From an uncultured Eubacteriales bacterium (GTDB taxonomy: Bacteria; Bacillota; Clostridia; Peptostreptococcales; Anaerovoracaceae), in contig CADAEH010000006.1 in NCBI GenBank assembly GCA_902786855.1, forward strand, positions 56,512 through 120,511: a stretch of DNA of 64,000 bases. The letters run 5' to 3'. Below, piece by piece: positions 27,193 through 60,711 of the stretch (positions are counted from its first letter, which is position 1; each line of letters starts with the position of its first letter). Made by a program: the position numbers and the translations under genes. The notes beneath the pieces are model-generated. The model ran no database searches. It had not been told where the DNA came from and was given only the letters and a program-made list of their open reading frames with translations.

Positions 27193-28593
27193 TTATTTGA
27201 TATCGTTGTTGGTCTTGCCCTGACGGAACTGGCTTACATCACCGGTCTTCTCCTGCTCTGGGTAAAGAGGAATAGCTGCTGCGTAGAGTGCTGCGCATGT
27301 TACAAGATCCTGTTTCCATGTGATCTCGTTAGGTGCGTGAGCCTGGCTCTCAGCTCCAGGTCCGAATCCTACGCAAGGGATACCGTAACGTCCCTGGATG
27401 GAAACGCCGTTGGTCGAGAATGTCCACTTATCGCAGAGAGGACGTCCTTCTCTCTTATCCATAGCAGTTGGTGAGCCGATCCTCTTGTCGCCGAAGAGAG
27501 CTTTGTGTGCTTCCACGAGAGCCTTGACATGAGCTGAACTCTCTTTGTTGATCCATGTCGGGAAGTAACACTCTGTCTCATATACTTCCTTGGTCCAGGA
27601 TGGACGGTCATACATGTACATCGATACCTTGACATCATCGCCATACTTCTTGCATGCAGGAAGCTGTCTGATCTCTTCAAGGCAGCTGTCCCATGTCTCG
27701 CCTGCTGTCATACGTCTGTCAATCGAGATCGCGCAGGAGTCTGCTACAGCGCAGCGGCTTGGTGATGTGTAGAAGATCTGGGATACGGCACAGGTTCCCT
27801 TGCCGAGGAATCTCGCGTCTTCATAGTGATCCGGGTTGAACTTAGGGTCGAGCATCTTGACAAGTCCGTTGATGGATGTGCTGTCATCGCATCCGTTGTT
27901 GTTGAGCGCTCTAACATCGCTGATGATGTCAGCCATTTTGTAGATAGCATTGTCGCCTCTCTCAGGAGCTGATCCGTGGCAGGATACGCCCTTGACGTCG
28001 ACTCTGATCTCCATACGGCCTCTGTGTCCACGGTATATACCGCCATCAGTAGGCTCGGTCGAGATAACGAAGTCGATCTTGCTTGCTGCGTCTTCCGGAC
28101 CGTTGAAGTACTTGTTGACGATGTACTGCCAGCACATGCCGTCGCAGTCCTCTTCCTGTACTGATCCGACTACCATGATCTTATAGCCTGCAGGGATGAG
28201 TCCGAGATCTTTCATGATCTTAGCGCCGTATACAGCACTGGCCATTCCGCCTTCCTGGTCGGATCCGCCGCGGCCGTAGATGATATCGTCTGTCTCATAT
28301 CCTTCATAAGGATCATGTGTCCAGTTATTGATGTTTCCGATACCGACTGTATCGATGTGGGAATCGATGGCAATAATCTTGTCTCCGTCTCCCATCCAGC
28401 CGATGACATTGCCGAGTCCGTCGACTTCGACCTTGTCATAGCCGAGCTTTTCCATTTCAGCCTTGATGCATGCTACGACTTCGCCTTCCTCACAGCTTTC
28501 ACTCGGGTGTGAGATCATAGCTCTCAGGAATGCGCTCATATCCTTACCGTAATCTTCTGCTGCTTTCTTTATAGCTTTATAATCCAATGCCAT
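27193..28593 (-). CDS. ygeY: YgeY-type M20 metallohydrolase of the selenium-linked purine cluster
   Basis: 466 residues of the M20 peptidase/deacylase family with an intact di-zinc site: [10 protein letters not shown] (His and Asp), [26 protein letters not shown] (catalytic and bridging Glu), and a late His in ESQAHAPNE. The sequence corresponds to the YgeY group ('selenium metabolism hydrolase'), found beside ygeW, ygfK, ssnA and hydA in purine-using gut anaerobes and in E. coli. Its substrate is not firmly known; removal of an acyl or carbamoyl group from a ring-opening product is the likely role. AGGAGG precedes the ATG. It is the last gene of a three-gene operon. Confidence 0.92.
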
Positions 28594-28619
28594 ATTGTCT
28601 TCCTCCTTGACATACTCTT

Positions 28620-29564
28620 TTATGCGTGGATCCTTGTGCCCGTCTTTCCGTTGATTCCGTCTTTAGCTTTTTCAAGAAGTGTGATGAGTGCGGTCCTTCC
28701 AGGCTTCGATTCAGCGAATTTCACTGCAGCCTCCACCTTAGGAAGCATTGATCCCGGAGCAAACTGTCCCTCAGCAATGTATTTCTTTGCTTCTTCAACA
28801 CTGATTTCACCGAGTTTCTGCTCATCAGGCTTGCCATAATTGATCGCCGCGTTCTCAACAGCTGTAAGAATGATCAGGAAGTCTGCATCCAGCTGCTCCG
28901 CAAGGAGCTCAGATGCACGGTCCTTATCTATTACGGCAGGGGCACCCTGGAGATGATGATTCTCTGTCTTGAATACCGGGATCCCTCCGCCGCCTGCTCC
29001 GATAACCACATAGCCTGCATCAGCAAGCGCCCTTATCGTATCGATCTCGATGATCGATATCGGTTCAGGGCTTGCGACCACTCTTCTGTAGCCTCTTCCT
29101 GAGTCCTCAATAAACACGTGCCTCTTTTCCATTGCCTTCTTATCCGCTTCTTCCTTGGTCAGAAACGGACCGATCGGCTTTGTAGGATGTCTGAATGCAG
29201 GATCCTGAGGGTCTACCTCAACCTGTGTCAGTACGCATGCAACATTCCCGGCAAGACCTCTGTCCAGGAGTTCTTCTCTGAGTTTGTTCGTGATGTCGTA
29301 TCCGATATAGCCCTGGCTCATAGCCGTACATACGGACAGCGGGAAGTGCGGGTGTTTTTCCGGATTCTCTCTCGAGAGGAGAGTCATAGCATCCTGGATG
29401 ACCCCGACCTGAGGACCGTTTCCGTGTGTGACTACTACTTCATAGCCTTCTTCAATAAGGTCCGCGATCGGCTTTACTGCATCTGATACCGATATCATCT
29501 GCTCCACCAGGTTGCTTCCGAGCGCATTACCACCCAGTGCTACTACTATTTTTTTGTTTTCCAT
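28620..29564 (-). CDS. arcC: Carbamate kinase
   Basis: 314 residues of the amino acid kinase fold. Carbamate kinase marks are [11 protein letters not shown] at the N-terminus, [11 protein letters not shown] near residue 47, [14 protein letters not shown], and [12 protein letters not shown] near 190-201. It makes ATP from carbamoyl phosphate and ADP. It sits between ygeW (a carbamoyltransferase homologue) and ygeY, as in other purine clusters. I infer it captures energy from carbamoyl phosphate released from a ureido intermediate; no arginine deiminase genes are near. Confidence 0.94.
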
Positions 29565-29612
29565 TTTCAGTACCTGCCTTCTCTAATTAAATGCAGAACG
29601 ACAGTAATTATC

Positions 29613-30818
29613 TTATTTCTCGAGGAATCCCTGTCTTGGGCAGCCATTCTCATCGAGTTCCTTCAGTGCTGCTACAGGGTCTTTTACCTTAGCAAGGAAG
29701 ATCATAGCCGCGATGACATATGGCTTGTTGGATGCCTCTTTGTACAGGCTGTCACGTGCGCGGTCAAATACCTCTGCAGTAACTTCGCCGTGCTCGCAGG
29801 AAATGCCCTGGATGTCTGCAGGAAGCGGATGCATGTAGAGAGTGTCGAGGCCGTTCTTGGTCAGCTTCATCATCTCATCGTCTACAAGCCAGTCCTGATG
29901 TGTTGCGTTCTGTGCGAGGAGTTCTTTTTCGAGCTTGTCAATACCGTCGAAGTCTCCCTTGCCATAGAGATCGGTTCTGACTTCCATAGCAGCGAACGGT
30001 GCCCAGCTCTTAGGATATACAACATCAGCATCCTTGAATGCTTCCTTCATGTCATTAGTTACTGTGAACTTACCGCCTGACTCAGCAGCATTCTTCTCAG
30101 CTACCTTTACGACGTCTTCCATTACCTCATAGCCTTCCGGATGAGCGAGTACTACGTCCATTCCGAAGCGTGTGAGAAGTCCGATGATGCCCTGTGGTAC
30201 CGAAAGAGGCTTGCCGTATGATGGGGAGTATGCCCAGCTCATAGCGATCTTCTTGCCCTTCAGGTTTTCAACGCCGCCGAACTCATGGATGATGTGCAGT
30301 GCGTCTGCCAGAGACTGTGTCGGGTGATCGATATCGCACTGGAGGTTTACAAGTGTAGGTTTCTGTTCGAGCTCGCCGTCCTTTGCAGCCTGTGTAACAG
30401 AGTCGACTACTTCGTGCATGTAAGCGTTGCCCTTTCCGATATACATATCATCACGGATACCGATTACATCTGCCATGAATGAGATCATGGTTGCAGTCTC
30501 ACGAACGGTCTCGCCGTGAGCGATCTGTGACTTCTTCTCGTCGAGGTCCTGCACCTCGAGTCCGAGCAGGTTGCATGCGCTTGCAAATGAAAATCTTGTA
30601 CGTGTCGAATTGTCTCTGAAGATCGAGATTCCGAGTCCGGAATCGAAGATCTTGGTCGACTTGTTGCGTTCTCTGAGATCTCTCAGCGCATCTGCTACAG
30701 TAAAGATCGCTGCGATCTCATCGTCTGTCTTCTCCCATGTCAGGAAAAAGTCATTCTCATACATGTTGGCGATATCAAGCTTCGCCAGTTTTTCTGCGAG
30801 TTCTTTTGCTTTTGACAT
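29613..30818 (-). CDS. ygeW: YgeW-type knotted carbamoyltransferase
   Basis: 401 residues, longer than ornithine carbamoyltransferase and typical of YgeW. The carbamoyl phosphate loop is FRDNSTRTRFSFASACNLLG, with the second-subunit segment SQIAHGETVRE, then CDIDHPTQSLADALHII and YMHPLPADIQG. YgeW does not use ornithine or aspartate; it is thought to act on a purine-derived ureido compound, here in the phosphorolytic direction so that arcC can make ATP. AAGGAG precedes the ATG, and a promoter lies about 80 nt upstream, making it the first gene of its operon. Confidence 0.93.
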   Translation of the reverse strand: MSKAKELAEKLAKLDIANMYENDFFLTWEKTDDEIAAIFTVADALRDLRERNKSTKIFDSGLGISIFRDNSTRTRFSFASACNLLGLEVQDLDEKKSQIAHGETVRETATMISFMADVIGIRDDMYIGKGNAYMHEVVDSVTQAAKDGELEQKPTLVNLQCDIDHPTQSLADALHIIHEFGGVENLKGKKIAMSWAYSPSYGKPLSVPQGIIGLLTRFGMDVVLAHPEGYEVMEDVVKVAEKNAAESGGKFTVTNDMKEAFKDADVVYPKSWAPFAAMEVRTDLYGKGDFDGIDKLEKELLAQNATHQDWLVDDEMMKLTKNGLDTLYMHPLPADIQGISCEHGEVTAEVFDRARDSLYKEASNKPYVIAAMIFLAKVKDPVAALKELDENGCPRQGFLEK

Positions 30819-30975: not shown

Positions 30976-32412
30976 CTATATCATTTCGGAAAATTCAAGA
31001 GTTTCCGGCGTATGATCCTGCGCCAATGTGCTCGTTCCGCGCCTTAGATATCTGCCGTCTCCCCGTTTTCCGAGGAACTCGCCTTCTGAAACGATCTCCC
31101 GACCTCTCAGAAAAACTTTTTCTATTTTTCCGCTGAGCTGCATTCCTTCGTAGCATGAATAATCAGAAGCGCCGCGGATATAGTCTTTATCGATCATCGT
31201 ATAAGAGAGCGGATTTATGATAACGATATCCGCATCAGTGTCCGGCAGCAGGGTTCCCTTCTCAGGATACATCCCGAACATTTTGCTCGGATTAGTGCAG
31301 CAGTATTTTACTACCTCAGGCAGGGTGAGTCTGTCCCCCATATAGCCCTCGGAAAATACCAGCATCAGCCTTTCCTGCACTCCCGGAGCCCCGTTCGGGC
31401 ACTTAGTGAAGTCGTCCTTGCCGTATTGCTTCTCTGCTTTCCCCGCCTTGTAATGGAACGGGCAATGATCCGTCGCGATGGTATCGATTTCTCCGTCTTT
31501 CAGTGCCTGCCAGAGTTCTTCTCTGTCCTGATCTTTCCTCAGAGGCGGTGACATGATCGCCTTCAGGCCTTCCTGCGGATCCTCATACATATCATCAGTC
31601 AGCACCAGATACTGCGTGCAGGTCTCGACGCCAAGGTTTCTCTGACCTTCCGCTCTCGCCTTCTGTACCTCATGCAGGCCATGAGCACTTGACAGATGCA
31701 CTATGTACAGCGGTGCATCGCCCGCCATGGCAGCCAGATGTATCATCCTGTTGACTGCTTCCGCCTCGCACCTTGCAGGCCTGCTCAGCGGATGGAACTT
31801 TGCCTCACCGAGACCGGCTTCCTGACATTTCCTGCGCAGCAGCTGGATCACTCCATGGTTTTCGCAGTGAACAGTGATCAGAACACCGGCATCCTTAGCT
31901 GCCTGCAGGACCTGTAATATCTCTTCATCAAGCAGCCTGTAATCATATGTCATATAGACCTTGAAGCTTGTGATCCCTTCTTTTTTCGCGATCTCTTTCA
32001 TCTCATCAAGGGTCTCTTCGTGCAGATGCTGAAAGACACCGTGAAAACCGTAGTCCACGACAGCATTGCCGTCTGCCAGGCGGTGATATTCATTCACCTG
32101 ATGCCAGAGGCTGCAGTCTTTCGGCCCGAATGCCATATGATCCACGATGGTGGTCGTGCCGCCGCAGGCAGCCGCTACCGTACCGTCGTAAAAATCGTCT
32201 ATCGCCCGTGCAAAACCCACGTCCAGATCCATATGGGTATGGACGTCTATCGCTCCGGGCAGGACATACATTCCCGATGCGTCGATGATCTCTGCGCCCT
32301 CGCATTCAAGATCAGATCCTACCGCTGCGATCTTCTCACCATCGATCAGGATATCTGCTTTGAAGACAGCTGTATCATCCGCCAGTATTCCGTTTTTTAT
32401 TATCTTTTTCAT
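30976..32412 (-). CDS. hydA: Dihydropyrimidinase / hydantoinase-type cyclic amidohydrolase
   Basis: 478 residues of the D-hydantoinase family. The metal site HxH is in GAIDVHTHMDL, the carboxylated lysine in TSFKVYMTYD, further ligands in ITVHCENHG and IVHLSSAHG, and the catalytic Asp in TIATDHCPFH. These enzymes hydrolyse cyclic amides (hydantoins, dihydropyrimidines, xanthine-derived rings). In the Se-linked purine cluster this gene (hyuA/hydA) is inferred to open a reduced purine or imidazole-type ring. It follows the Mo hydroxylase at 32423 by 10 nt with a weak ribosome site and ends in a strong terminator. Confidence 0.93.
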   Translation of the reverse strand: MKKIIKNGILADDTAVFKADILIDGEKIAAVGSDLECEGAEIIDASGMYVLPGAIDVHTHMDLDVGFARAIDDFYDGTVAAACGGTTTIVDHMAFGPKDCSLWHQVNEYHRLADGNAVVDYGFHGVFQHLHEETLDEMKEIAKKEGITSFKVYMTYDYRLLDEEILQVLQAAKDAGVLITVHCENHGVIQLLRRKCQEAGLGEAKFHPLSRPARCEAEAVNRMIHLAAMAGDAPLYIVHLSSAHGLHEVQKARAEGQRNLGVETCTQYLVLTDDMYEDPQEGLKAIMSPPLRKDQDREELWQALKDGEIDTIATDHCPFHYKAGKAEKQYGKDDFTKCPNGAPGVQERLMLVFSEGYMGDRLTLPEVVKYCCTNPSKMFGMYPEKGTLLPDTDADIVIINPLSYTMIDKDYIRGASDYSCYEGMQLSGKIEKVFLRGREIVSEGEFLGKRGDGRYLRRGTSTLAQDHTPETLEFSEMI

Positions 32413-32422: not shown

Positions 32423-35362
32423 TTATTTCTTCTTATTGTAGTAGGTGTTTTCCATAGGAAGAGTCGTTCTCAGCACTCCGTCTCTTGCATAATATGCGCC
32501 GGCTATCGCAGGTGCGGCAGGAATGGTCGTGATCTCACCTATTCCCTTTGCGCCGTACGATACATCAAGGAGCCAGTCCTTCTCTACATGGATCGCGTGG
32601 ATCTCAGGCGCATCCGTGGACCTCAGCAGTCCCAGGGTTCCGTATTTTGCTTTAGGTACGCAATCCTCGAGCGGCCATTTTTCTGTCACGGCATAGCCCA
32701 TTCCCATCAGAACTCCGCCCTCTATCTGACCTGACATCGAAAGCGGATTTACCACCTTTCCGGCATCGAACGCTGCGTATATGTCGGTGACACGTCCGTC
32801 TTCGTCAAGCACAGCTACATTGGTCGCATAACCGTAAGCGATGTGGCTCCGCGGGTTAGGTTTGTCAGATCCGAGCTTGTCCGTCGGTTCGAAGTATTCA
32901 TAAAAGAATTCTCTGCCGTTCAGCTTCTCCAGATCAGCTTCAATGATACCGGCTTCGTCCATTGCCTTTCTGAGCTGCAGAGCTGCGCCTCTTACCGCTT
33001 CGCCTGTTATAAGGGTCTGACGCGAACCGGATGTGGTGCCTGAATCAGGTGCATTCTCGGTATTTGAGATCCCGATCCTGACCTTGGTTATAGGAAGCGC
33101 CGTCGCCTGTGCCACGTCCTGACAGAACACAGTCTGACATCCCTGTCCTATATCGGATGCTGCAGTGTAGATGTACACAACTCCATCCTTTACTATGAGC
33201 TTAGCTCTTCCCTTATCAGGCAGGCCGACTCCTACTCCGGCATTTTTCATAGCGCACGCTATGCCCACTCTGTCCTTAGGGTTGTTGTCATAGTACTGCT
33301 TTACAGCAAGGAGAGTTTCCTTGAGCGCCGTCGAGACATCTGCGATCTGTCCGTTAGGAAGTACCTCCCCCGGTTCTATCGCATTCCGGTATCTGATCTC
33401 CCATGGACTGATCCCGACTTTTTCCGCCAGCACGTTCAGGAGCGACTCAAGCGCAAACTGGCTCTGGCATACTCCGAAACCTCTGAACGCTCCCGCAGGT
33501 GGATTGTTCGTATAATATCCGAACCCTCTTATATCTGTGTTGTGATAGTTGTAAGGTCCGACACTGTGCGTACAGGCTCTCTCCAGGACCGGTCCGCACA
33601 GGCTCGCATAAGCGCCGGTATCGAAGTTGATCTCACAGTCGAGGCCTTGCAGGATACCGTTCTCATCACAGCCTATCGTAAAGGTTCCCTCCATGGCATG
33701 TCTCTTAGGATGGACCCTCAGAGACTCACTGCGGCTGAACTTAGCCTTGACAGGTCTTCCGAATTTCAGAGCTGCAAGCGCTGAAATGTGCTGCGTGGTC
33801 ACGTCTTCCTTACCACCGAAGCCTCCGCCTATGAGCATGTTTTCGACTACGACTTTCTCCGGAGTATCCAGCCAGCCGAGCATATGACAGATCTCTTTTC
33901 TGGTATCGAATGCTCCCTGGTCAGTCGAAAGCACCTTGACTCCTCCCTTATATGGGAATGAGACCGCGCACTCAGGTTCGAGGAAAGCATGCTCGGTGAA
34001 CGGTGTTGAGAAACTTGCCGTGACCGTATAAGCGGACTTTGCGAGTGCCTTGGCAGCATCTCCTCTGACCACGTGTCTGCTTTGACACAGGTTTCCGTTC
34101 TCGTGGATCGCAGGAGCTCCTTCTGCTCTTGCTTCGTGAATATTTCTCACAGGCTCAAGCGGTTCGTAATCCACTTTGATCGCTCTTTTGGCTTGCTCGA
34201 GTATGTATGGTGTCTCGGCAACGACCATGCATATCGCGTCTCCGACCATCCTTGTCGTATCACCTTCAGCGATCATCACATCCCAGTCCTGCTGGATGTG
34301 ACCGACCTTGTTGTGAGGAACATCCGCTGCTGTAAGAACACCCAGTACACCCGGCAGAGACTCTGCCTTTTCTTTATGGATCTTCTTTACTATCGCCCTT
34401 GGAAAATCGGAACGTACAGCAGAGCAGTATGCCATCGGAGGCATATCTGCCTCGACGATCGTGCAGGTATTGCAGCCATGCTCACCTTTCCGGTATATAT
34501 TGGCGCCCGCTTTTATTTCTCCCCTTTTGACAGCGTCATCGAGATCCTCTTTGCTCCACCCGGCCTGCTCCATTATGAGCTCAGGTCTGTCCTCCGGGAT
34601 GAAGTATTCAGGACCGATATCATCAGGGTATTTACCATAGCCGAGGACCTTTTTCCTGACGTCCACCCGGAAGACATTCTGGCCGACTCCGTATATTGAT
34701 GCACGCTCTATATTGATCGGGTTTTCGCTGCCGGTCAGCTCCATTGGATCATAGCGGTTTCCGTATATGGACGCATGTCCGTAATTGCGGTAATTTGCTA
34801 TTCCTGAAACTACTGCCGGATCATACTGTGTCCCGTACTCGGAAATATATACGATCTCTCCTTTTGCGTCTTCATCCGAAAACTGACTGACGAATCTTAT
34901 CTCTTCTTCGCCGCGAAGCACCGCGGCTGCTCTTTTTATGCCCTGAACAATCTTTTTATAGCCGGTGCACCGGCATATGTTGCCCCTGATAGCTTCCCTG
35001 ATCTCTTCATCTGAAGGATCCGGGTTTCTGTCAATAAGCGCCTTAGCCGCCATGACCATGCCCGGTATGCAGAAGCCGCACTGGACAGCCCCGCTGGATC
35101 CGAATGCGAAAACAAAGGCTTCCTTCTCGCTGACAGACAGTCCCTCAACAGTCAGAATGCTTTTGCCCTCTGCTCTCTTTGTGGTCAGGACACATGATTT
35201 TACCGCGCGTCCGTCCACTATGATCGTGCATGTGCCGCACGCGCCTTCCGAGCATCCGTCCTTGACTGAATACAGTCTCAGATCGTCTCTGAGATATCTG
35301 AGCAGAGGCTTATCTTCTTCAGTCGTTCTGACAACACCGTTTACAGTAAATGTGTATGCCAT
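32423..35362 (-). CDS. xdhD: XdhD-type fused 2Fe-2S/molybdopterin hydroxylase, selenium-dependent xanthine dehydrogenase class
   Basis: 979 residues. The N-terminal plant-type 2Fe-2S domain keeps Cys37, 42, 45 and 57 (DGCSEGACGTC...SC), and the second 2Fe-2S helical domain keeps QCGFC and ICRCTGY. From about residue 200 the molybdopterin domain follows: IGGGFGGKED, GAFRGFGVCQSQFALE, SDIGQGCQTVFCQD, and the C-terminal active-site Glu in GAKGIGEITTIPAAPAI. The fused layout matches E. coli XdhD and the Se-dependent molybdenum hydroxylases of clostridia. It would oxidise a purine such as hypoxanthine or xanthine, or run as a reductase. It has no FAD domain and must pass electrons to a partner: YgfK, the RnfB-like protein next door, or a FAD subunit at 44184 or 45559. 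Confidence 0.93.
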   Translation of the reverse strand: MAYTFTVNGVVRTTEEDKPLLRYLRDDLRLYSVKDGCSEGACGTCTIIVDGRAVKSCVLTTKRAEGKSILTVEGLSVSEKEAFVFAFGSSGAVQCGFCIPGMVMAAKALIDRNPDPSDEEIREAIRGNICRCTGYKKIVQGIKRAAAVLRGEEEIRFVSQFSDEDAKGEIVYISEYGTQYDPAVVSGIANYRNYGHASIYGNRYDPMELTGSENPINIERASIYGVGQNVFRVDVRKKVLGYGKYPDDIGPEYFIPEDRPELIMEQAGWSKEDLDDAVKRGEIKAGANIYRKGEHGCNTCTIVEADMPPMAYCSAVRSDFPRAIVKKIHKEKAESLPGVLGVLTAADVPHNKVGHIQQDWDVMIAEGDTTRMVGDAICMVVAETPYILEQAKRAIKVDYEPLEPVRNIHEARAEGAPAIHENGNLCQSRHVVRGDAAKALAKSAYTVTASFSTPFTEHAFLEPECAVSFPYKGGVKVLSTDQGAFDTRKEICHMLGWLDTPEKVVVENMLIGGGFGGKEDVTTQHISALAALKFGRPVKAKFSRSESLRVHPKRHAMEGTFTIGCDENGILQGLDCEINFDTGAYASLCGPVLERACTHSVGPYNYHNTDIRGFGYYTNNPPAGAFRGFGVCQSQFALESLLNVLAEKVGISPWEIRYRNAIEPGEVLPNGQIADVSTALKETLLAVKQYYDNNPKDRVGIACAMKNAGVGVGLPDKGRAKLIVKDGVVYIYTAASDIGQGCQTVFCQDVAQATALPITKVRIGISNTENAPDSGTTSGSRQTLITGEAVRGAALQLRKAMDEAGIIEADLEKLNGREFFYEYFEPTDKLGSDKPNPRSHIAYGYATNVAVLDEDGRVTDIYAAFDAGKVVNPLSMSGQIEGGVLMGMGYAVTEKWPLEDCVPKAKYGTLGLLRSTDAPEIHAIHVEKDWLLDVSYGAKGIGEITTIPAAPAIAGAYYARDGVLRTTLPMENTYYNKKK

Positions 35363-35913: not shown

Positions 35914-35938
35914 TTTCCCCCTGAGCAGAAAACTATGA

Positions 35939-39790: not shown

Positions 39791-39816
39791 ATTTTCCCTC
39801 CTTGTGACTGCCCGGA

Positions 39817-48790: not shown

Positions 48791-48889
48791 GCTCATCCCT
48801 CCTTATTGCTAAAAGTTACTATGATATGAAATGTGCTTTATATGGAATAATTTATTATCTATTTAATATACTCATGTATTGCAGCGCGA

Positions 48890-52219: not shown

Positions 52220-53929
52220 TTACTGGTTGATGAATCCTGATCCTGAAGCTGCCACCTTAAACAGTCCTCTAGGTGTGACACGGAGCTCAGGAATTACTGT
52301 AAGTGCCATGAACGAAAGCGTGATGAACGGATCGAAATCCTGCGAAACGCCCATCTCGTAAGCCTTAGTTTTCATTACCTGAAGTTTGCTGTTGACTTCC
52401 TTGAAATGCACGTCTGTCATCAGTCCCATGATAGGCAGCGGCAGGGTCTCGAAAACTTTTCCGTTCTCGACTACTGTGTAGCCGCCCTGTACACGGGCGA
52501 TCTCATTGACTGCGATCGCGATATCTTCATCGTTGTCGCCGATTACTATGATATTGTGCGAATCATGTGATACTGATGAAGCGATAGCGCCGCCGCGTAT
52601 ACCGTATCCCTTAGTCACTGCAACTCCGATCTTGCCGCTGTTTTTATGTCTTTCTACAGCTGCGATCTTGAGGTAGCCGTCATGCGGGACAAAGTTGTCT
52701 GTCTTAGGGAAATGCACGACGATATCATTCGTTACGATCTGCTTAGGCTCCATACCCAGTACATGTGTAAGCTGTTTCTTGATCGGAAGAACGAAATCTG
52801 ACGGATGTACCTTGTCGATGTTGACAGTGTGTTTCAGTTTTGCCGGGCACTTCTTTACCTTGATCGGAGCATTCTTGTCGATGCGTTTCCCCTTGAAGTA
52901 AACATCAAGTACGTTGAAGTCTTTCATGTTGTCAAATACTACCAGGTCAGCCTGATAACCAGGAGCGATAGCTCCCATATGCTTGAGGCCGTAGCACTTA
53001 GCGGTATTGATGGTTGCCATCTTGATGGCCTTGAACGGATCGAGTCCCAGTTCTACAGCTCTTCTGACGTTATAAACGATATGACCTTCTCTGAGGATAT
53101 CTTCTATGTGCTTATCGTCGGTGCAGAAACTGAAGTGCTCGGTATCAATGCCTGTCCTGACAATGCCGCTTACGATGTCATCAACGTTGTGTGCGGCAGA
53201 GCCTTCACGTACATGGACATGTATGCCTCTTCTGGCTTCCTCGAGTGCATACTCGAACGTCGATGCCTCGTGGTCTGTATCTACGCCAGCCAGCTTGTAT
53301 GCAGACAGCTGCCTGTTAGGCAGGAACGGTGCGTGGCCGTCGATCGTCTGATGTTCAAACAGTGCGAACTTGGCAAACATACGAGGATCTCCGTTGATAA
53401 CTGCATCATCGTCCATGACCTCGCCGAGACCCAATATCCTCTCATTTCCTACGAAAGGATACATGTCATTAGCTGCAAACATGCAGCCGTTATCATCTAT
53501 GTTGGTAGCCGGTACACATGACGGCATCATAACGAACACATTGGCGTCAGACTTTTCGGTCTGATCAAGGATGTATTTGATTCCGTCAGCACCGGATACA
53601 TTGCATGCCTCATGAGGGTCAACGATGAATGTCGTCGTACCGCAGGCTGCAGCCGTGGCGACCAGTTCGGCAGGAGCGACCATCGTGGATTCAAGGTGCA
53701 GGTGTGCATCTATGAATCCCGGAGCGATATATGCACCTTTAAGGTCGACCTCTTTCTTGCCCTGATAGGATTTTGATACACCCAGGATGATGCCATCCTT
53801 GACTGCCACACATGACTCGACTATCTCGCCGGTGAAAACGTCAACTATCTTGCAGTTCTTAAGCAGAAGATCTGCTTTGACCTTGCCGAGTGTAGCTCCG
53901 GCCAGTCTCTTATAAGTCTCTAATTTCAC
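52220..53929 (-). CDS. ade: Adenine deaminase
   Basis: 569 residues, the normal length of bacterial Ade. The metal site GFIDAHLHLESTMVAP, the conserved VDPHEACNVSGADG, the second-half DGYLKIAAVERHKNSG and the SSVSHDSHNIIVIGDND block are family signatures. It converts adenine to hypoxanthine. The start is a GTG with AAAGGAG. The upstream 70 nt after the transporter terminator hold a hairpin (53950-53976) but no recognisable purine riboswitch core. Confidence 0.95.
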   Translation of the reverse strand: MKLETYKRLAGATLGKVKADLLLKNCKIVDVFTGEIVESCVAVKDGIILGVSKSYQGKKEVDLKGAYIAPGFIDAHLHLESTMVAPAELVATAAACGTTTFIVDPHEACNVSGADGIKYILDQTEKSDANVFVMMPSCVPATNIDDNGCMFAANDMYPFVGNERILGLGEVMDDDAVINGDPRMFAKFALFEHQTIDGHAPFLPNRQLSAYKLAGVDTDHEASTFEYALEEARRGIHVHVREGSAAHNVDDIVSGIVRTGIDTEHFSFCTDDKHIEDILREGHIVYNVRRAVELGLDPFKAIKMATINTAKCYGLKHMGAIAPGYQADLVVFDNMKDFNVLDVYFKGKRIDKNAPIKVKKCPAKLKHTVNIDKVHPSDFVLPIKKQLTHVLGMEPKQIVTNDIVVHFPKTDNFVPHDGYLKIAAVERHKNSGKIGVAVTKGYGIRGGAIASSVSHDSHNIIVIGDNDEDIAIAVNEIARVQGGYTVVENGKVFETLPLPIMGLMTDVHFKEVNSKLQVMKTKAYEMGVSQDFDPFITLSFMALTVIPELRVTPRGLFKVAASGSGFINQ

Positions 53930-54043: not shown

Positions 54044-55030
54044 CTACCTGTCTTCTCGGAAGTATGGCAGGCCAAGTCCTTCAGGTGGTTGATTCTCATT
54101 TTTACCCCTAAGGCTGATGACTATCAGCACTATGATCGTTACTAAGTACGGCAGCATCTTATATATCTCTTTCATCGCGAAATTCGCGCCTGTAGGGATA
54201 TACAGATAGAGTATGTAAAGTCCGCCGAAAAGCATCGATTCCCAGATCGCCCAGTTAGGACGCCAGATCGAGAATATTACGAGTGCAATAGCAAGCCATC
54301 CTCTGTCACCGAATGCATCGTTCGACCATACACCACTCGCGTAATCGAGTACGTAGTAGAGTCCGCCGATACCGGCGATCATGCATCCTATGCAGATAGA
54401 GAAGTATTTATATCTGTTGATATTGATACCGGCAGCATCAGCAGTAGCCGGGTTTTCACCAACAGCTCTCAGCTCCAGTCCTGTACGTGTCCTTTTCAGA
54501 GTATAGGATGTGAAGATAGCTATAGCGATCGCCACATATGTCATGAAACTGTATGAGAAGAGCAGTTCCCCGATCACACCGGCTTTGCCTGCAAACGGCA
54601 GAGGTGTCTTGAACGCTTTACTTGTCGCAGAAAGCACTATGGAAGGAACTTCGCTGCCCGTCAGTTTCATGATCGAGCCGCCGAAGAAGTTACCGAAACC
54701 GACACCGAACGTTGTCATGGCAAGTCCTGTTACGTTCTGATTTGCTCTGAGAGTTACTGTAAGGAAGCAGAAAAGCAGTCCCATCAGCAGTGAGCCTACC
54801 ATACAGCACACTATCGGTATCAGAAGGCCAATAACGGGATTGAAGTTCGCTGCTGAATTCTCATAAAGGAATGATCCTATTACACCTGATATAGCTCCGA
54901 CGTACATGACGCCCGGGATACCGAGGTTAAGGCTGCCGGATTTTTCGTTCAATGTTTCACCTACGCAGCCGAGCAGAAGCGGAATACTCTGTACGATCGC
55001 TCTAGGTATGAATGTTACCAGACTAAACAT
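54044..55030 (-). CDS. Nucleoside ABC transporter permease (BmpA-linked, NupQ-like)
   Basis: 328 residues with about eight to nine membrane segments of the BPD_transp_2 family. Typical segments are LLLGCVGETLNEKSGSLNLGIPGVMYVGA at the start and TRTGLELRAVGENPATADAAGINI in the middle, the permease loop that contacts the ATPase. The start at 55030 has AAAGGAGG and overlaps the stop of the first permease by 8 nt. An upstream in-frame codon would add 20 residues with no likeness. It is the second permease of a purine nucleoside importer. Confidence 0.92.
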   Translation of the reverse strand: MFSLVTFIPRAIVQSIPLLLGCVGETLNEKSGSLNLGIPGVMYVGAISGVIGSFLYENSAANFNPVIGLLIPIVCCMVGSLLMGLLFCFLTVTLRANQNVTGLAMTTFGVGFGNFFGGSIMKLTGSEVPSIVLSATSKAFKTPLPFAGKAGVIGELLFSYSFMTYVAIAIAIFTSYTLKRTRTGLELRAVGENPATADAAGININRYKYFSICIGCMIAGIGGLYYVLDYASGVWSNDAFGDRGWLAIALVIFSIWRPNWAIWESMLFGGLYILYLYIPTGANFAMKEIYKMLPYLVTIIVLIVISLRGKNENQPPEGLGLPYFREDR

Positions 55031-56132
55031 CTGCAGCCTCCTTTCCGTGCGATTTGCGGAAATGCACCTGATAATTGATGAAGAATTCACTTCCGATTAC
55101 GAAGAACAGGATAACTCCTGTAAGGATGTCTCCGAACGAGTTGTTCAGTCCGAACGCTGTGGAGATCTCAGATCCGCCGCGGCTCATGAATACCATCAGA
55201 AGTCCCGATAAAATCATCCCGATCGGATTGAAGTGCGCCAGCCACGCTACCATGACTCCGAGGAAGCCTCTGCCGGCTTCGATCGTAGTTGTCATTGTGT
55301 GGTCCGTGCCGGCTACAAGCATCCATCCTGTAAGACCGCAGATAAGTCCGCAGAGTACCAGTGTACGGACTATGACTTTTCCTACATTGATACCTACATA
55401 TCTGGCGGTATTCTGGCTCTCACCGACTACTGAGAGCTCGTAACCGTGTTTGCTGTATCTCAGATAGATATACATGAATATGGTCACAACGATCGAGACC
55501 AGTACAGGCAGGAGATACTGTTTGCCTGCTACTACAGGGAGCCAGCCGGCATTCGTATTCGGGTTGATGATGCCGATCTTGCCGGACCCCTTCGGGTTCT
55601 CCCAGATGATGATATAGTATGCAACGATCTGCGTCGCTACATAGTTCATCATCAGTGTGAAAAGCGTCTCGTTGGTGTTCCATTTTGCCTTGCAGAATGC
55701 AGGGATGAATGCCCAGAGCGCACCTGCGGCAAGTGCTGCTATAAGTGACACAAGTATGAGTGCCCCGTTAGGCAGCTTATCATCAAGAGTTATCATGCAG
55801 GTCGCTGTAGCAAGTACACCGGCCATTACCTGTCCGCCGCCACCGAGGTTCCAGAACTTCATCTTGAATGCCGGAGCCAGCGCTACGGAAACCATCAGCA
55901 ATATGGACAGTTCCTTGAGCAGGGCCCACATCTTTCTCGGACTTCCGAATGAGCCTTCCCACATAGCGCCGTAGACGCTGATAGGATTCAGATGTGTAGT
56001 AACGGTCGTGATCAAAGCGCATACTATGAGAGCGACCAGGATACTGCCGAGCCTTATACCCCATTCATGCGTTTTTGAGATCGCCTTTCTCTTAGTGATA
56101 TGGATCAAAGGTTCTTTCTTTTGTTTATCCAA
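55023..56132 (-). CDS. Nucleoside ABC transporter permease (NupP-like)
   Basis: 369 residues with about nine to ten membrane segments of the same family. WEGSFGSPRKMWALLKELSILLMVSVALAPAFKMKFWNLGGGGQVMAG and YSKHGYELSVVGESQNTARYVGINV are characteristic. Two in-frame GTG codons lie at 56141 and 56138 but sit on top of the GGAGG site; the TTG at 56132 has that site at 8 nt and overlaps the ATPase stop by 8 nt, so I take it as the start. The two permeases form the membrane channel. Confidence 0.9.
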   Translation of the reverse strand: MDKQKKEPLIHITKRKAISKTHEWGIRLGSILVALIVCALITTVTTHLNPISVYGAMWEGSFGSPRKMWALLKELSILLMVSVALAPAFKMKFWNLGGGGQVMAGVLATATCMITLDDKLPNGALILVSLIAALAAGALWAFIPAFCKAKWNTNETLFTLMMNYVATQIVAYYIIIWENPKGSGKIGIINPNTNAGWLPVVAGKQYLLPVLVSIVVTIFMYIYLRYSKHGYELSVVGESQNTARYVGINVGKVIVRTLVLCGLICGLTGWMLVAGTDHTMTTTIEAGRGFLGVMVAWLAHFNPIGMILSGLLMVFMSRGGSEISTAFGLNNSFGDILTGVILFFVIGSEFFINYQVHFRKSHGKEAADV

Positions 56133-57693
56133 TTTCACCACCTCCGACTTTTGTCATAAGCAGTCCAACGCTGTGCTTGTCTGCCGTCCTGCCGTCAACG
56201 ATCCCGCTCACCTTACCTCCGCACAGCACCAGAATGCGGTCGCTGAGTTCGAGCAAAACATCGAGGTCTTCTCCGACAAATATAACGGCTACTCCGCGTT
56301 CCTTCTGCTGGTTGATAAGATCGTAAATGGTATATGAAGCATTGATATCAAGTCCTCTGACCGCGTATGCAGACATAAGCACAGTAGGGTTCATGGCTAT
56401 TTCACGGCCTACGAGCACCTTCTGGACGTTACCGCCTGACAGGCGTCTGACCGGAGTGTCGATTCCCGGTGTCACGACCTCGAGCTCGTCTACGACCTTC
56501 TGTGCAAGTTCTCTCGGTGTCTTACGGTCTGTAAATCCTGCGATGCTTCCCTTTCTTCTGAATGACCTGAGCATCATATTGTCAGCCAGATCCATGTTGG
56601 CTACAAGTCCCATACCAAGTCTGTCCTCAGGAACGAAAGCAAGCGAGACGCCCTTGGTATCGATCTCCAGCGAATCCATGCCGACAAGGTTTGTCCTGGA
56701 TCCGTCATCTTCAACATACAGGATCTCACCCTTTTCTATAGGCTGAAGTCCCGCAATGGCCTCAAGGAGTTCTTTCTGACCGCACCCGGATATACCGGCA
56801 ATGCCGAGTACCTCTCCGGTGTTTGCAGTAAAGGATACGTCATCAAGTTTCAGTATCCCGTCTTCAGTCCTTACCGTAAGACCTTTTATCTCAAGTCTCG
56901 GCTTTACGTTCTTAGGTTCAGGTCTGTCTATGTTCAGCTTGACCTCGCGCCCTACCATCATGTTGGTCATCTCCTGGGCGTTGGTCTCCTTTGTTATCAG
57001 CGTTCCGATATACTCACCTTTACGGAGTATAGCAACTTTATCAGAGATCTCTTCTACCTCGTGCAGCTTGTGTGTGATGATGATGACGGTCTTGCCGTCA
57101 GCTCTCATGTTACGAAGAACGTTGAAGAGCTTTTCCGTCTCCTGCGGAGTCAGTACAGCCGTAGGCTCGTCAAGAATCAAAATGTCCGCGCCTTTATAAA
57201 GCACTTTTACGATCTCTACGGTCTGCTTCTGGGATACCGACATGTCATATATTTTCTGATCAGGATCTACATCGAATCCGTAAGCATCACAGATCTCACG
57301 GATCTTCTTCGAAGCTTTTTCTATATCGAGCCTGCTCCATCTCGGTATCTTCTTGCCGTCTGTCTCATCGATGCCCAGAATTATGTTCTGCGCAGCAGTG
57401 AATACGTTGACCAGCTTAAAATGCTGGTGGATCATGCCTATGCCATAGTCATAGGCATCTTTCGGAGATGATATCTGAACAGGTTTTCCGTCAATAAAGA
57501 TCTCGCCCTCATCAGGATAATAAATACCCGAGAGCATATTCATCAAAGTAGTCTTGCCGGAACCGTTCTCGCCGAGAAGAGATAGGATCTCACCGCGGTA
57601 AATATCGAGGTTGACCTTGTTATTGGCTACCGTGCTTCCGAATGTCTTTGTAATGTTTCTCATCGAAACTGCGGGTGTTCTGCTGTCTTGCAA
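56125..57693 (-). CDS. Nucleoside ABC transporter ATPase with two nucleotide-binding domains (NupO-like)
   Basis: 522 residues with tandem ABC domains. The first has Walker A GENGSGKTT (41-49), Walker B ILILDEPTAVLTPQE and an H-loop IITHKLHEVEE; its signature reads MSVSQKQTVEI instead of the usual LSVGQ. The second has a degenerate P-loop GISGCGQKE, normal for the family, and LSGGNVQKVLVGRE, but its Walker B region reads LMSAYAVRGLDINAS where relatives have QPTRGLDVGA. The start is a TTG with GGGGAG; an ATG ten codons later is an alternative. It powers import of nucleosides or purine bases captured by the BMP lipoprotein. Confidence 0.9.
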   Translation of the reverse strand: MQDSRTPAVSMRNITKTFGSTVANNKVNLDIYRGEILSLLGENGSGKTTLMNMLSGIYYPDEGEIFIDGKPVQISSPKDAYDYGIGMIHQHFKLVNVFTAAQNIILGIDETDGKKIPRWSRLDIEKASKKIREICDAYGFDVDPDQKIYDMSVSQKQTVEIVKVLYKGADILILDEPTAVLTPQETEKLFNVLRNMRADGKTVIIITHKLHEVEEISDKVAILRKGEYIGTLITKETNAQEMTNMMVGREVKLNIDRPEPKNVKPRLEIKGLTVRTEDGILKLDDVSFTANTGEVLGIAGISGCGQKELLEAIAGLQPIEKGEILYVEDDGSRTNLVGMDSLEIDTKGVSLAFVPEDRLGMGLVANMDLADNMMLRSFRRKGSIAGFTDRKTPRELAQKVVDELEVVTPGIDTPVRRLSGGNVQKVLVGREIAMNPTVLMSAYAVRGLDINASYTIYDLINQQKERGVAVIFVGEDLDVLLELSDRILVLCGGKVSGIVDGRTADKHSVGLLMTKVGGGEIG

Positions 57694-57800: not shown

Positions 57801-59024
57801 TTAGCCGAAGTTTGTATCGAGCAGGTTGATTCCGTCTATCTGCAGATCGAAGTATGGAGCTGATCTGTATTCAGACTCATGGAAGTATCCGTCAGAGATT
57901 ACCTCTGTCTCGTGCTCATAAGCCTCATCAGCCTCTACGTCAGCCAGATAGGAATCAAGGTGTTTACCGTCTACAGTGAATGTGCTTGTGTCGAATACGT
58001 GGATCGAGCCATCCTTCAGGCCAGCCTCGACCTCTTCGAGCTTAGCAGCAGTACCTTCAGCAGCAACATTCTCGTTGAGCTCTGTCAGCTGTACAGAGTC
58101 TGTGTCGAGTGTTCCTGTCCAGTTAGTATCAAATGCCTCTCCGTTCTGAACTGCTTTGATTGCATATTCATAGAACGGTGACCAGTTGATCTTGGAGGAA
58201 ATGATGTAGGAATCCGGGCAAGCTTCCATTGTGCTTCCGTTGTAGGAAACGTCAGGGATACCAGCCTCTTTGCATGCTGTAGGAGCTCCCATGGAGTCAG
58301 CGTGCTGTGAGATAAGATCGCATCCGCCCTGGATCAGCTTGTTAGCGCCTTCCTTCTCAGCGGTCTCATCATACCAAGAACCAGTGAATGTAACGTCCAT
58401 TGTGACATCCGGGCAAACGCTCTTTGCACCAAGGTAGAATGATGTGTATCCGGAAACTACCTCAGCATATGTGAACGCACCTACATAACCCATCTTAGGG
58501 GTAGCGCCCTTCAGTTTGCCTGCTTCCTTGATCTCGTTGAGCTTCATTCCTGCAGCAACACCTGCAAGATAACGACCTTCATAGATCGAAGCGAATGCAT
58601 TGTGGAAGTTGTCCTGATTTGCTACGAGAGCATTGTCGCCTGTGCAGCTTACGAACTGTACATCAGGATTGTCCTTGGCTGCCTGGAGCATGAAGCCCTG
58701 ATGACCGAAGGAGTCTGAGAAGATGAGTGCGCAGCCCTTATCTACGAGCTCGCCGGCTGCATCATAGCATTCCTGTCCTTCAGGAACGTTCTTCATGATG
58801 ATAGCCTCTACTCCCATCTTGTCGCAGGATTCCTGGAATGCATCGAGGAAGTTCTTGTCATAAGTGGAGTTCTCGTCGTGGAGTGTGATCAGTCCGACCT
58901 TCATTGCAGCTTCGCCGCCTTCGTCGCCGCCTGCTTCTTCTCCGCCGCCGCCACCGCAGGCTGCCAGCATTGGCATCATTACCATAGCAAGGCAAATCAT
59001 TAAAGCAATAAGTCTTTTCTTCAT
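57801..59024 (-). CDS. BMP-family nucleoside-binding lipoprotein
   Basis: 407 residues. The signal peptide ends in the lipobox MLAAC with Cys23 as lipid site, then a Gly/Glu linker. The mature part has the BMP (PnrA-like) fold: VGLITLHDENSTYDKNF, ALIFSDSFGHQG, FVSCTGDNALVANQDNFHNAFASIYEGRYLAG, and GGCDLISQHADSMGAPTACKE. PnrA and NupN relatives bind purine nucleosides. It is the first gene of the transporter operon, with GGGAGG before the ATG and a long untranslated leader. Context makes purine nucleosides or bases the likely ligands. Confidence 0.93.
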   Translation of the reverse strand: MKKRLIALMICLAMVMMPMLAACGGGGGEEAGGDEGGEAAMKVGLITLHDENSTYDKNFLDAFQESCDKMGVEAIIMKNVPEGQECYDAAGELVDKGCALIFSDSFGHQGFMLQAAKDNPDVQFVSCTGDNALVANQDNFHNAFASIYEGRYLAGVAAGMKLNEIKEAGKLKGATPKMGYVGAFTYAEVVSGYTSFYLGAKSVCPDVTMDVTFTGSWYDETAEKEGANKLIQGGCDLISQHADSMGAPTACKEAGIPDVSYNGSTMEACPDSYIISSKINWSPFYEYAIKAVQNGEAFDTNWTGTLDTDSVQLTELNENVAAEGTAAKLEEVEAGLKDGSIHVFDTSTFTVDGKHLDSYLADVEADEAYEHETEVISDGYFHESEYRSAPYFDLQIDGINLLDTNFG

Positions 59025-59159: not shown

Positions 59160-59165
59160 AGGTTA

Positions 59166-59194
59166 ATTTTAACTCTTAATATAGTTAATGACAA
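59166..59194 (-). promoter_or_regulatory. Promoter of the nucleoside transporter operon
   Basis: On the minus strand TTGTCA (59189-59194), a 17-bp spacer, TAAAAT (59166-59171); both boxes match consensus at five of six bases. Confidence 0.7.
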
Positions 59195-59244
59195 TAACAA
59201 AATATAAAATTAATATGATTTTAGGTTTAACTTTTTTTGCCGCG

Positions 59245-59273
59245 TTGACCGGTTTCCCTGCTGAATGTAAAAT
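59245..59273 (+). promoter_or_regulatory. Promoter of mocA-yqeC
   Basis: TTGACC (59245-59250), 17-bp spacer, TAAAAT (59268-59273) on the plus strand. It diverges from the transporter promoter 50 bp away, so a shared regulator is possible. Its position rules out start codons for mocA upstream of about 59280. Confidence 0.7.
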
Positions 59274-59316
59274 GATACATATATATAGAAAATCATCTGA
59301 AAAAAGCACAATACTT

Positions 59317-59907
59317 ATGAGACACGCAGACATCGCGATCATACTCGAGGCTGCCGGAAACAGCAGCAGATACGGCAGCAATAAGCTGCTTCATATTATG
59401 GAGGACGGACGTCCGATGGTATGCAGGATGCTGGACAATGCAAGAGCCCAGGATCCTTCCCGCCTGATACTTGTGACACAGTATGAAGAGGTCGTTTCGC
59501 TTGCTCCGGACTTTCAGATCGTCATGAATCATCACCCTGATCTCGGCATATCCCGCTCCATGCAGCTGGGCATTGAAGCTGCCGGTGATGCGGATGCCTA
59601 CATGTTCTGTGTATGTGATCAGCCATGGCTTACTCCGGCGACCGTCGGCCGCCTGATCGAAGAGTACCGGTCAGGCAAAGCGGGGATAGTTTCTCTTGCA
59701 TGGCAGGGAAAAATGTGCAATCCCAAGATTTTTTCATCACGCTACAGAGAAGAGCTCATGAGTCTTACAGGTGATACGGGCGGCCGGCAGATCATATCAT
59801 CGCATCCTGACGATTTGCTTCTGGTCGAGGCAGCAAGCATCGAAGAGACCATGGATATAGACCGCCCGATACATACCGCCAGTACACATTCAGTCAGCGG
59901 AGAGTGA
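59317..59907 (+). CDS. mocA: MocA-type molybdenum cofactor nucleotidyltransferase
   Basis: 196 residues of the MobA/MocA fold. EAAGNSSRYGSNKLLH at residues 11-26 is the nucleotide-binding loop (relatives read LAAGxSxRMGxNKLL), and CVCDQPWLTPATVGRLI holds the metal-binding Asp. MocA links CMP to molybdopterin to give the dinucleotide cofactor used by xanthine dehydrogenase-type enzymes. The start at 59317 agrees with the family and with the promoter at 59245; upstream in-frame Met codons lie in or before the promoter. The ribosome site is poor. It is co-transcribed with yqeC, which ties it to the Mo hydroxylases across the divergent promoter. Confidence 0.88.
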   Translation: MRHADIAIILEAAGNSSRYGSNKLLHIMEDGRPMVCRMLDNARAQDPSRLILVTQYEEVVSLAPDFQIVMNHHPDLGISRSMQLGIEAAGDADAYMFCVCDQPWLTPATVGRLIEEYRSGKAGIVSLAWQGKMCNPKIFSSRYREELMSLTGDTGGRQIISSHPDDLLLVEAASIEETMDIDRPIHTASTHSVSGE

Positions 59908-59931
59908 GTACTCCTGCAGCAGGGACTTAAG

Positions 59932-60711
59932 ATGGAATTGTGGAACTTCAGAGGAAAACAGAATAGTATAACAGCTGCACTGCAGCTCTCAATACCCGAT
60001 CATGCAGTCATAAGCATCACCGGCAGCGGGGGCAAAACTTCACTGATCTTCGCCTGGGCACATGAACTTGCCGGGTCCGGCAAGCGCACGGTGATAACCA
60101 CTACCACGCACATGGCTCACCCCGATCATGTAAAAGATGACCCTTGCTGTCCATACGGCGGGGTAACGGCTGTATTCGTCCCATCAGACGGATCGAAGCC
60201 GGTCAGCGATATACTTGCAGATATAGATAATCAGCTTGAATGTGAGAACATCGTAATGGTCGTCTCCCCTGACCCGGAAAGACCGGCTAAGGTCATGTCC
60301 CCTCCGCAGGCGGTAATGGATCATCTATACAAAACGGCAGATGTCGTCCTCATCGAAGCAGACGGTTCGAGACGCATGCCGCTCAAATGGCCGGCCCCAT
60401 GGGAGCCTGTCGTACCCGGCAATACCGATATCACCGTATGTGTTACGGGCCTGAGTTCTCTCGGCAGCAGACCATGCGATGTAATGTACGGGTATGAATA
60501 TCTGCCTGAAGCCATGCGCCGCGAGACCGTAGATGCATCGCTTATCAGCGCTGTGCTCGTATCGCTTGACGGCGGGCAGAAGGCAGCGCAAGGAGAGTAC
60601 AGGGCTTTTCTCAACCAGGCAGATAATGCAGAGCTCAAAAGGACCGCATCCGGCATACAGAATATACTTGCTGTATGCGGCATACAGAGTGCGTGGGGCA
60701 CTTTGCTTTAG
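59932..60711 (+). CDS. yqeC: YqeC, selenium-dependent molybdenum hydroxylase accessory protein
   Basis: 259 residues. A P-loop-like SITGSGGKTSLIFAWAHEL (28-46), VITTTTHMAHP, DVVLIEADGSRRMPLKWPAPWEPVVP and the late VLVSLDGGQKAA.G.YRAFLNQAD block are the YqeC signature. YqeC and YqeB co-occur with Se-dependent molybdenum hydroxylases and are thought to help insert selenium into the cofactor. AGGGAC precedes the ATG, 24 nt after mocA. A bidirectional terminator follows. Confidence 0.92.
   Translation: MELWNFRGKQNSITAALQLSIPDHAVISITGSGGKTSLIFAWAHELAGSGKRTVITTTTHMAHPDHVKDDPCCPYGGVTAVFVPSDGSKPVSDILADIDNQLECENIVMVVSPDPERPAKVMSPPQAVMDHLYKTADVVLIEADGSRRMPLKWPAPWEPVVPGNTDITVCVTGLSSLGSRPCDVMYGYEYLPEAMRRETVDASLISAVLVSLDGGQKAAQGEYRAFLNQADNAELKRTASGIQNILAVCGIQSAWGTLL

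Follow-up and report, generated by a model that had tools for sequence, protein, structure and literature searches.

The enzymes of the reductive urate pathway from Escherichia coli and Clostridioides difficile have been reconstituted in vitro, where they take urate to yanthine and then to pyruvate (Li et al. 2025, PMC12507026), and the same pathway has been discussed by Percudani (PMC12990295). In the account of Li et al., XdhD-YgfM forms yanthine from urate, and the yanthine is then reduced and opened by YgfK and SsnA. HyuA acts next, opening the hydantoin ring, after which the ureido groups are taken off by YgeW and YgeY and 2,3-diaminopropionate is cleaved by YgeX; Glu606 of E. coli XdhD is proposed to orient urate. 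Herein, we analyzed a window of 64,000 nucleotides (bases 56512-120511 of contig C6, which is 120,511 bases long) from the genome of an uncultured Eubacteriales bacterium (2.9 Mb, 62 contigs, 87% complete), in which genes were assigned with NCBIfam models at their curated cut-offs and with Pfam domains. All genes of the urate pathway bar ygeX are present, most of them above the curated cut-offs. The most interesting part lies at and past the edge of the cluster, where TSL, a threonine-synthase-like pyridoxal 5'-phosphate (PLP) enzyme, is encoded (60809..62032, minus strand) directly past the end of the region marked out in a preliminary description of this DNA. By a modest balance of probability, we read the cluster as a catabolic locus leading from purines through urate to a C3 unit around the yanthine pathway, with a terminal module that differs from the textbook one and in which TSL and a second PLP enzyme, PLP490, would take diaminopropionate onward.

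An E. coli region of this kind, with 23 genes, was described in 2008 (Haft and Self, PMC2276186). In E. coli K-12 the locus (L010) runs xdhABC-ygeVWXY-hyuA-yqeABC-mocA-ygfK-ssnA-ygfM-xdhD-xanQ-guaD-ghxQ-ygfST-uacT, and it has in common with the window XdhABC, XdhD-YgfM, YgfK, SsnA, HyuA, YgeW, carbamate kinase, YgeY, MocA, YqeB, YqeC, guanine deaminase, purine import, the XdhD Glu606 and an XdhD iron-sulfur (Fe-S) domain minus its cluster cysteines. Relative to K-12, the window run is without YgeX, YgeV, NCS2 permeases, and YgfST, and adds Ade, a BMP-type ATP-binding cassette (ABC) importer, a TIGR03311 hydroxylase, a ferredoxin, a MerR regulator, an M20 hydrolase, and the linked TSL. The selenium-dependent molybdenum (Mo) hydroxylase regions described for Enterococcus faecalis and C. 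difficile resemble the window in that their purine hydroxylases are accompanied by selD, yqeB, yqeC, and a MocA-type protein, and they share with it the EF2570-type fused Fe-S/Mo hydroxylase (PMC2276186, PMC11448449); according to Li et al., C. difficile has UacX/UacY instead of YgfK/YgeW (PMC12507026). Because the K-12 region already brings together purine uptake, a guanine deaminase, two sets of hydroxylase genes, and the maturation genes, and because such a region was described in 2008, the kind of locus is known: judged by its genes, the window carries a reductive uric acid (yanthine) pathway, accompanied by genes for purine uptake, for two deaminases and two more Mo hydroxylases, and for the selenium cofactor. 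The preliminary description had called it broader than the core set, a claim to be narrowed, since xdhABC, xdhD-ygfM, guaD, XanQ, GhxQ, UacT, mocA, yqeB, and yqeC are all found in K-12; the truly extra components are Ade, the BMP-type ABC importer, the third hydroxylase, and the ferredoxin.

YgeX (diaminopropionate ammonia-lyase) normally splits diaminopropionate to pyruvate and ammonia. None was found in the window or in the 87% complete genome, where the best match to the YgeX model TIGR03528 reached 60.7 bits (cut-off, 532). The preliminary description had proposed a near-complete route without noticing this gap, and that claim is not supported in the form given. A table in the 2008 paper gives ygeX for E. 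coli, E. faecalis, and C. difficile (PMC2276186), whereas the window is without it. Of 394 genomes from the window's order, 21 had ygfK above cut-off, and 5 of these lie outside the window's genus; ygfK was also scored present in G335 and G358 from fragments under the cut-off. YgeX occurred in 7 of the 23 ygfK-bearing genomes: all five outside the genus (G357, G382, G168, G041, and G033), whose best TSL matches are 23-37% identical, and two of the 18 within it (G208 and G281). The other 16 were without YgeX; 17 of the 18 genus genomes are 82-97% complete. For the 14 ygfK-bearing genomes of a second genus batch, the YgeX record covers the neighborhood of G407 alone, in which ygeX was found, making G407 a third genus member with this gene.

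TSL scored 212 bits against the threonine synthase model TIGR00260 (cut-off, 167) and 24.2 bits against TIGR03528 (cut-off, 532.25), the latter score ruling out a diverged YgeX; identity to E. coli YgeX is 24% over 208 residues. The two belong to the same PLP fold class (YgeX, PDB 4D9G), and TSL matches Pfam PALP (239 bits), the domain that names YgeX in the account of Li et al. (PMC12507026). With short threonine synthases of the Thermus thermophilus type (PDB 1UIM, 2ZSJ, and 6CGQ), TSL aligns over the PLP domain but differs at a Ser/Arg site. We compared 40 TSLs, chosen from 80 loci and the window, with five solved threonine synthases and three further short ones. At T. thermophilus positions 155 and 160, the threonine synthases of both groups have Ser and Arg, whereas the TSLs have Ala (40/40) at the first position and Leu (39/40) or Met (1/40) at the second. 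We take Ser155 and Arg160 to be ligands of the phosphohomoserine phosphate, and found no paper naming them. The TSLs retain the PLP lysine and the STGN loop, and the GNAGN loop of the three further threonine synthases reads GDGCT in TSL. One of the two peptide patterns later used to scan for TSLs lies close to the Ser/Arg site but excludes both positions.

PLP490, of 490 amino acids, is nearest, weakly, to cysteine synthase and cystathionine beta-synthase. Both it and TSL match Pfam PF00291, the marker for scoring YgeX neighbors in Li et al. (PMC12507026). The PLP490 gene of the window's genome terminates 169 bases short of the C25 contig end, oriented as if following TSL as it does in G307, and contig C6 stops 2 kb past TSL. 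A group II intron domain (63813-63878) lies at this contig end, just past TSL, and may explain the assembly break between the two genes. The genome's other PLP genes encode an IlvA-like enzyme (C16, on which no family scan was made), a D-serine ammonia-lyase (C4), and a 364-amino-acid threonine-synthase-like protein (C2) with similar matches in G307 and G361.

Within the genus, the pair tracks the cluster. In the first batch, TSL was found in 17 of 18 ygfK-bearing genomes (in pieces in G351 and G358; absent from G367, which is 79% complete) and in none of the 11 that lack ygfK. The second batch (n = 19) had ygfK in 14 genomes (13 above cut-off plus a partial copy in G410) and TSL-type matches, classed by score and length, in 15, three of them in ygfK-negative genomes that are 67-84% complete. 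Across all 48 genus genomes, TSL was present in 29/32 with ygfK versus 3/16 without, and PLP490 in 30/32 versus 2/16, some copies being in pieces; naive Fisher tests that ignore kinship gave p values of about 1e-6 and 3e-8, respectively. To these counts we added a tree of the longer threonine synthase, ThrC, from 45 of the 48 genomes (G342, G401, and G408 left out). It yielded 8 independent pairs differing in ygfK, in which the presence of TSL or PLP490 changed the same way in 6 and the opposite way in 0, with 2 ties; 384 of 400 random pairings gave this 6-0-2 result and the other 16 gave 5-0-2. The window's genome has a second thrC, of canonical length, at another place, and a separate longer ThrC occurs in 46 of the 48 genomes (one partial; classed by score and length), which together with the absence of TSL from the ygfK-negative genomes of the first batch rules out TSL as the organism's threonine synthase; its distribution is not that of a housekeeping threonine synthase.

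TSL was also followed beyond the genus. A species-genome collection was scanned with two short TSL peptide patterns, a search that would miss members having neither, and the best 80 of 197 relatives were used, of which 28 were assigned to the window's genus by their identity (86-94%) and the remaining 52 were others at 64-75%. Of these 52 outside loci, 45 had PLP490 in the stretch, and 36 of the 45 carried it no more than 300 bp upstream of TSL in the same orientation. With stretches reaching up to 10 kb to either side, 30/52 contained one or more of ygeY, ygeW, ssnA, and ygfK, and only 5 of those 30 also had ygeX there; L106, for example, has the order ssnA-ygfK-SeXDH-PLP490-TSL-ygeY-ygeW-arcC, with no ygeX. 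Among 50 outside genomes with TSL that were tested (a set that leaves aside L147 and L148), SsnA was found in 45 (42 above cut-off; split or partial in G422, G423, and G425) and YgeX in 16, all SsnA positive, so that 29 of the 45 genomes with both SsnA and TSL are without YgeX. Tentatively, and at a little under even chances, we propose that PLP490-TSL may be a terminal branch undescribed in the literature searched, occurring across several families of Firmicutes and in some spirochaetes, which would replace YgeX in most TSL-bearing genomes examined and stand beside it in others, turning diaminopropionate into pyruvate or serine/glycine. In many urate clusters, a YheO-like PAS/HTH_22 protein adjoins PLP490, TSL, or arcC (e.g., L112 7562-8215, and between arcC and ygeY in G264); it is a candidate pathway regulator and was not seen in the window.

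The cluster itself comprises a minus-strand run of 22 genes (27193-59024, intergenic gaps of -68 to 157 bp), beyond which mocA and yqeC lie on the plus strand. ygeY, arcC, ygeW, hydA (as D-hydantoinase), SeXDH, yqeB, ygfK, ssnA, xdhD, xdhC, xdhB, xdhA, ade, and yqeC scored above their NCBIfam cut-offs; guanine deaminase, the YgfM-type flavin adenine dinucleotide (FAD) subunit, and mocA are present under their equivalog cut-offs. The features are as follows.

57801..59024, minus strand: BMP/PnrA-type substrate-binding lipoprotein of an ABC importer, substrate inferred (Pfam Bmp PF02608, 96 bits, above cut-off)
56125..57693, minus strand: importer ATPase (ABC_ATP_B6, 412 bits, under the cut-off of 670)
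55023..56141, minus strand: importer permease 2 (ABC_B6_perm_2, 136 bits, under cut-off)
54044..55090, minus strand: importer permease 1 (ABC_B6_perm_1, 137 bits, under cut-off)
52220..53929, minus strand: adenine deaminase Ade (TIGR01178, 554 bits; cut-off, 472.5)
50952..52217, minus strand: guanine deaminase-like GuaD (TIGR02967, 314.9 bits, under the cut-off of 375.4)
49770..50915, minus strand: M20 amidohydrolase (TIGR01891, 248.6 bits, above cut-off)
48890..49663, minus strand: MerR-family regulator (Pfam MerR_1)
46463..48796, minus strand: XdhA, Mo subunit of purine hydroxylase 1 (NF043082, 1129.7 bits; cut-off, 780)
45559..46446, minus strand: XdhB, FAD subunit (NF043083, 415.5 bits; cut-off, 310)
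45015..45566, minus strand: XdhC, [2Fe-2S] subunit with its eight cluster cysteines kept (NF043084, 256.7 bits; cut-off, 217)
44184..44990, minus strand: YgfM-like FAD subunit, divergent (TIGR03312, 102.9 bits, under the cut-off of 241.5; Pfam FAD_binding_5)
41299..44181, minus strand: XdhD, predicted urate reductase, urate to yanthine, and a Mo subunit (TIGR03313, 1219 bits; cut-off, 1102)
39859..41232, minus strand: SsnA aminohydrolase (NF005540, 652 bits; cut-off, 444)
36764..39916, minus strand: YgfK, putative yanthine reductase (TIGR03315, 1344 bits; cut-off, 835)
35939..36730, minus strand: YqeB, selenium-dependent Mo-hydroxylase maturation (TIGR03309, 342.7 bits; cut-off, 220)
35377..35982, minus strand: RnfB-like ferredoxin, candidate electron carrier (Fer4 repeats)
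32423..35362, minus strand: SeXDH, third Mo hydroxylase, Fe-S and Mo parts fused (TIGR03311, 1134.5 bits; cut-off, 830; Pfam domains)
30976..32412, minus strand: HydA/HyuA hydantoinase (TIGR02033, 526 bits; cut-off, 393)
29613..30818, minus strand: YgeW carbamoyltransferase (TIGR03316, 750 bits; cut-off, 500)
28620..29564, minus strand: ArcC/YqeA carbamate kinase (TIGR00746, 375.6 bits; cut-off, 358)
27193..28593, minus strand: YgeY hydrolase (NF009555, 610.7 bits; cut-off, 321)
59188..59907, plus strand: MocA-like molybdenum cofactor cytidylyltransferase (TIGR03310, 128.2 bits, under the cut-off of 186.45)
59932..60711, plus strand: YqeC, selenium cofactor protein (TIGR03172, 147.7 bits; cut-off, 73)

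Each gene named in the preliminary description was thus found in its place by the NCBIfam and Pfam scans, and its count of three Mo subunits, two FAD subunits, and one separate Fe-S subunit agrees with the coordinates. Gene content likewise backs its proposal of anaerobic purine or urate catabolism yielding carbamoyl phosphate and ATP through YgeW and ArcC. For its BMP nucleoside importer, the binding protein passes the Pfam Bmp model, and the term nucleoside goes further than the matches, as none of the NCBIfam models matching the four importer proteins attains its cut-off. Three members of the unit had not been listed there, namely, the MerR regulator, of which copies 57-71% identical lie near xdhA in 9 genus genomes, the M20 amidohydrolase, which adjoins ade in many genus loci examined, and the ferredoxin. 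Among named contigs, the closest TSL relatives are from Mogibacterium sp. and from uncultured Clostridiales metagenome-assembled genomes (MAGs), several ex goat, sheep, or horse gut. We take the organism to be a Mogibacterium-like ruminant-gut bacterium; a literature search on Mogibacterium and purines returned nothing useful.

As the reading we favor would have it, the BMP-type ABC importer brings purine nucleosides or bases into the cell, and Ade and GuaD, going by their families, would convert these to hypoxanthine and xanthine, which XdhABC and/or the TIGR03311 enzyme would oxidize to urate. XdhD-YgfM would then reduce urate to yanthine, YgfK and SsnA would open the pyrimidine ring, and HydA would open the hydantoin, steps suggested by homology and by Glu606, a residue that the window XdhD shares with all three genus XdhDs compared and that XdhA and SeXDH lack. 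YgeW and ArcC could convert one ureido group to carbamoyl phosphate and ATP, and YgeY could remove the other to leave 2,3-diaminopropionate, which TSL and PLP490 would process, most simply by beta-elimination of ammonia to pyruvate, both substrate and product being inferred. Oxidation of hypoxanthine to urate yields four electrons, and the two reductions take up four. Therefore, oxidative and reductive hydroxylases in one operon would balance redox internally.

Several points weigh against this reading. We know of no reaction of TSL or PLP490, and the genome's D-serine ammonia-lyase and IlvA-like enzyme may themselves act on diaminopropionate. None of ygeY, ygeW, ssnA, and ygfK was seen in 22 of the 52 outside loci, where some stretches are short and ten exceed 18 kb. 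The coexistence of YgeX and TSL, in the 16 outside genomes and in G208, G281, and G407, means that the pair is not a plain replacement, and the outside-genus counts come from TSL-positive genomes only. When only supported branches of the ThrC tree are used, 4 pairs are left (about 3 the same way, 0 opposite; p = 0.25), a test without power, and a quicker tree gave 3 pairs with about 2 the same way. Most of the genomes are incomplete MAGs, as is the window's own. Finally, serC follows TSL in 7 of the 52 outside loci, which fits a serine-linked role equally.

That last point leads to the strongest competing explanation, which we consider unlikely but worth keeping in view: the pathway is the same, and PLP490-TSL moves diaminopropionate into the serine, phosphoserine, or glycine pool by beta-replacement, an assimilatory role that can accompany YgeX and would account for the 16/50 genomes having both. 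In the seven loci with serC after TSL (L112, L115, L116, L117, where it lies past an opposite-strand open reading frame, L118, L120, and L146), serA and/or DUF1015 occur in 6/7 and ssnA-ygfK come next in 6/7, and the nearest solved relatives of TSL and PLP490 are beta- and gamma-replacement and elimination enzymes. Purines are also described as replacing glycine and threonine in C. difficile (PMC11448449). However, these seven loci are a small part of the 52, serC follows TSL in 0/28 loci of the window's genus, and serC-serA may be an unrelated neighbor. DUF1015 proteins stand beside serC/serA within urate clusters at L112 12387-13634 and L116 4453-5754; a literature search on DUF1015 with serine genes returned nothing useful.

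We regard as quite improbable that a promiscuous housekeeping enzyme, the D-serine ammonia-lyase (C4) or the IlvA-like protein (C16), splits diaminopropionate. Both are present, the former at 613.6 bits on its own model (cut-off, 368) and with a weak match to a diaminopropionate ammonia-lyase model (54 bits; cut-off, 276), and the ureido intermediates have been proposed to be of R configuration (PMC12990295), but this would leave two other PLP genes that travel with the cluster unexplained. There is still less to be said for a ygeX in the unsequenced part of the genome, with TSL and PLP490 doing something unrelated: the incompleteness of the assembly and the end of C6 just past TSL would allow it, but YgeX is also missing from 16/18 ygfK-bearing genus genomes and, within the stretch, from 25/30 outside loci with core urate genes, and the pair tracks the cluster. 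Least credible is a selenate-reduction locus, a general Mo-hydroxylase locus, or plain purine salvage stopping at xanthine or urate, as old family names (for example, "putative selenate reductase subunit YgfK") and the nearby xpt (23704-24279, near the ygeY end of the cluster) might suggest, given the ring-opening and ureido-cleaving genes downstream and the in vitro route from urate to yanthine and pyruvate reported by Li et al. (PMC12507026); we treat "selenate reductase" as a historic label.

Two of the hydroxylases raise questions of electron transfer. Of the 8 cluster cysteines in the Fe-S-type domain of XdhD, 7 are gone from the window protein and from 11/11 genus XdhDs compared, and all 8 from E. 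coli XdhD (L010 23317-26187); XdhC and SeXDH retain theirs. Urate reductase XdhD may thus be without [2Fe-2S] clusters, with XdhC or the locus ferredoxin as candidate carriers of electrons from the YgfM flavin to molybdenum. The term "2Fe-2S" does not occur in PMC12507026. The ferredoxin gene lies between yqeB and SeXDH and was found in 10 genus neighborhoods, and the ferredoxin-SeXDH pair recurs in L118; this protein is a candidate electron carrier for the SeXDH-type hydroxylase, which has no FAD subunit of its own and in which Pfam found no FAD domain. SeXDH is 979 amino acids long (mostly 957-1009 in the genus), versus 892 and 861 in homologues from G168 and G041, the additional residues lying between its Fe-S and Mo portions.

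The selenium link made in the preliminary description is supported by the predicted yqeB, yqeC, and mocA here and by selD, on contig C9 of the same genome, whose active-site motif has an in-frame TGA; YqeB and YqeC above cut-off with SelD in the genome mark a selenium-dependent Mo-hydroxylase locus. In C. difficile, selD or yqeB mutants are described as growing poorly on xanthine and urate, and a yqeC mutant as having no obvious phenotype (Johnstone and Self 2024, PMC11448449). A by-eye look-alike of NCS2 nucleobase permeases, possibly for urate or xanthine, adjoins the selD on C9 (L068 2263-3870). Elsewhere in the window, a secreted 743-amino-acid protein with SpaA and Big_2 domains (24709-26940) sits between ygeY and xpt; it was excluded from the unit, as it was not seen between these genes in G307 and G361. 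A citrate-lyase-type gene run (a CitX-CitG-APH fusion, Iso_dh, CitF, aconitase, and an HMGL-like protein) occupies 10456-21865.

Uricolysis by gut bacteria matters for gout and for the urate balance of the host, and it is the subject of engineering work. If the pair does act in place of YgeX, screens for urate degraders that require ygeX would miss many species, and surveys scoring PF00291 would lump different enzymes and could not tell the pair from YgeX. With oxidative and reductive hydroxylases together, the cell may ferment hypoxanthine while keeping electrons balanced internally. Whether the purine C3 unit ends as catabolic pyruvate or as assimilated serine/glycine becomes directly testable with two proteins.

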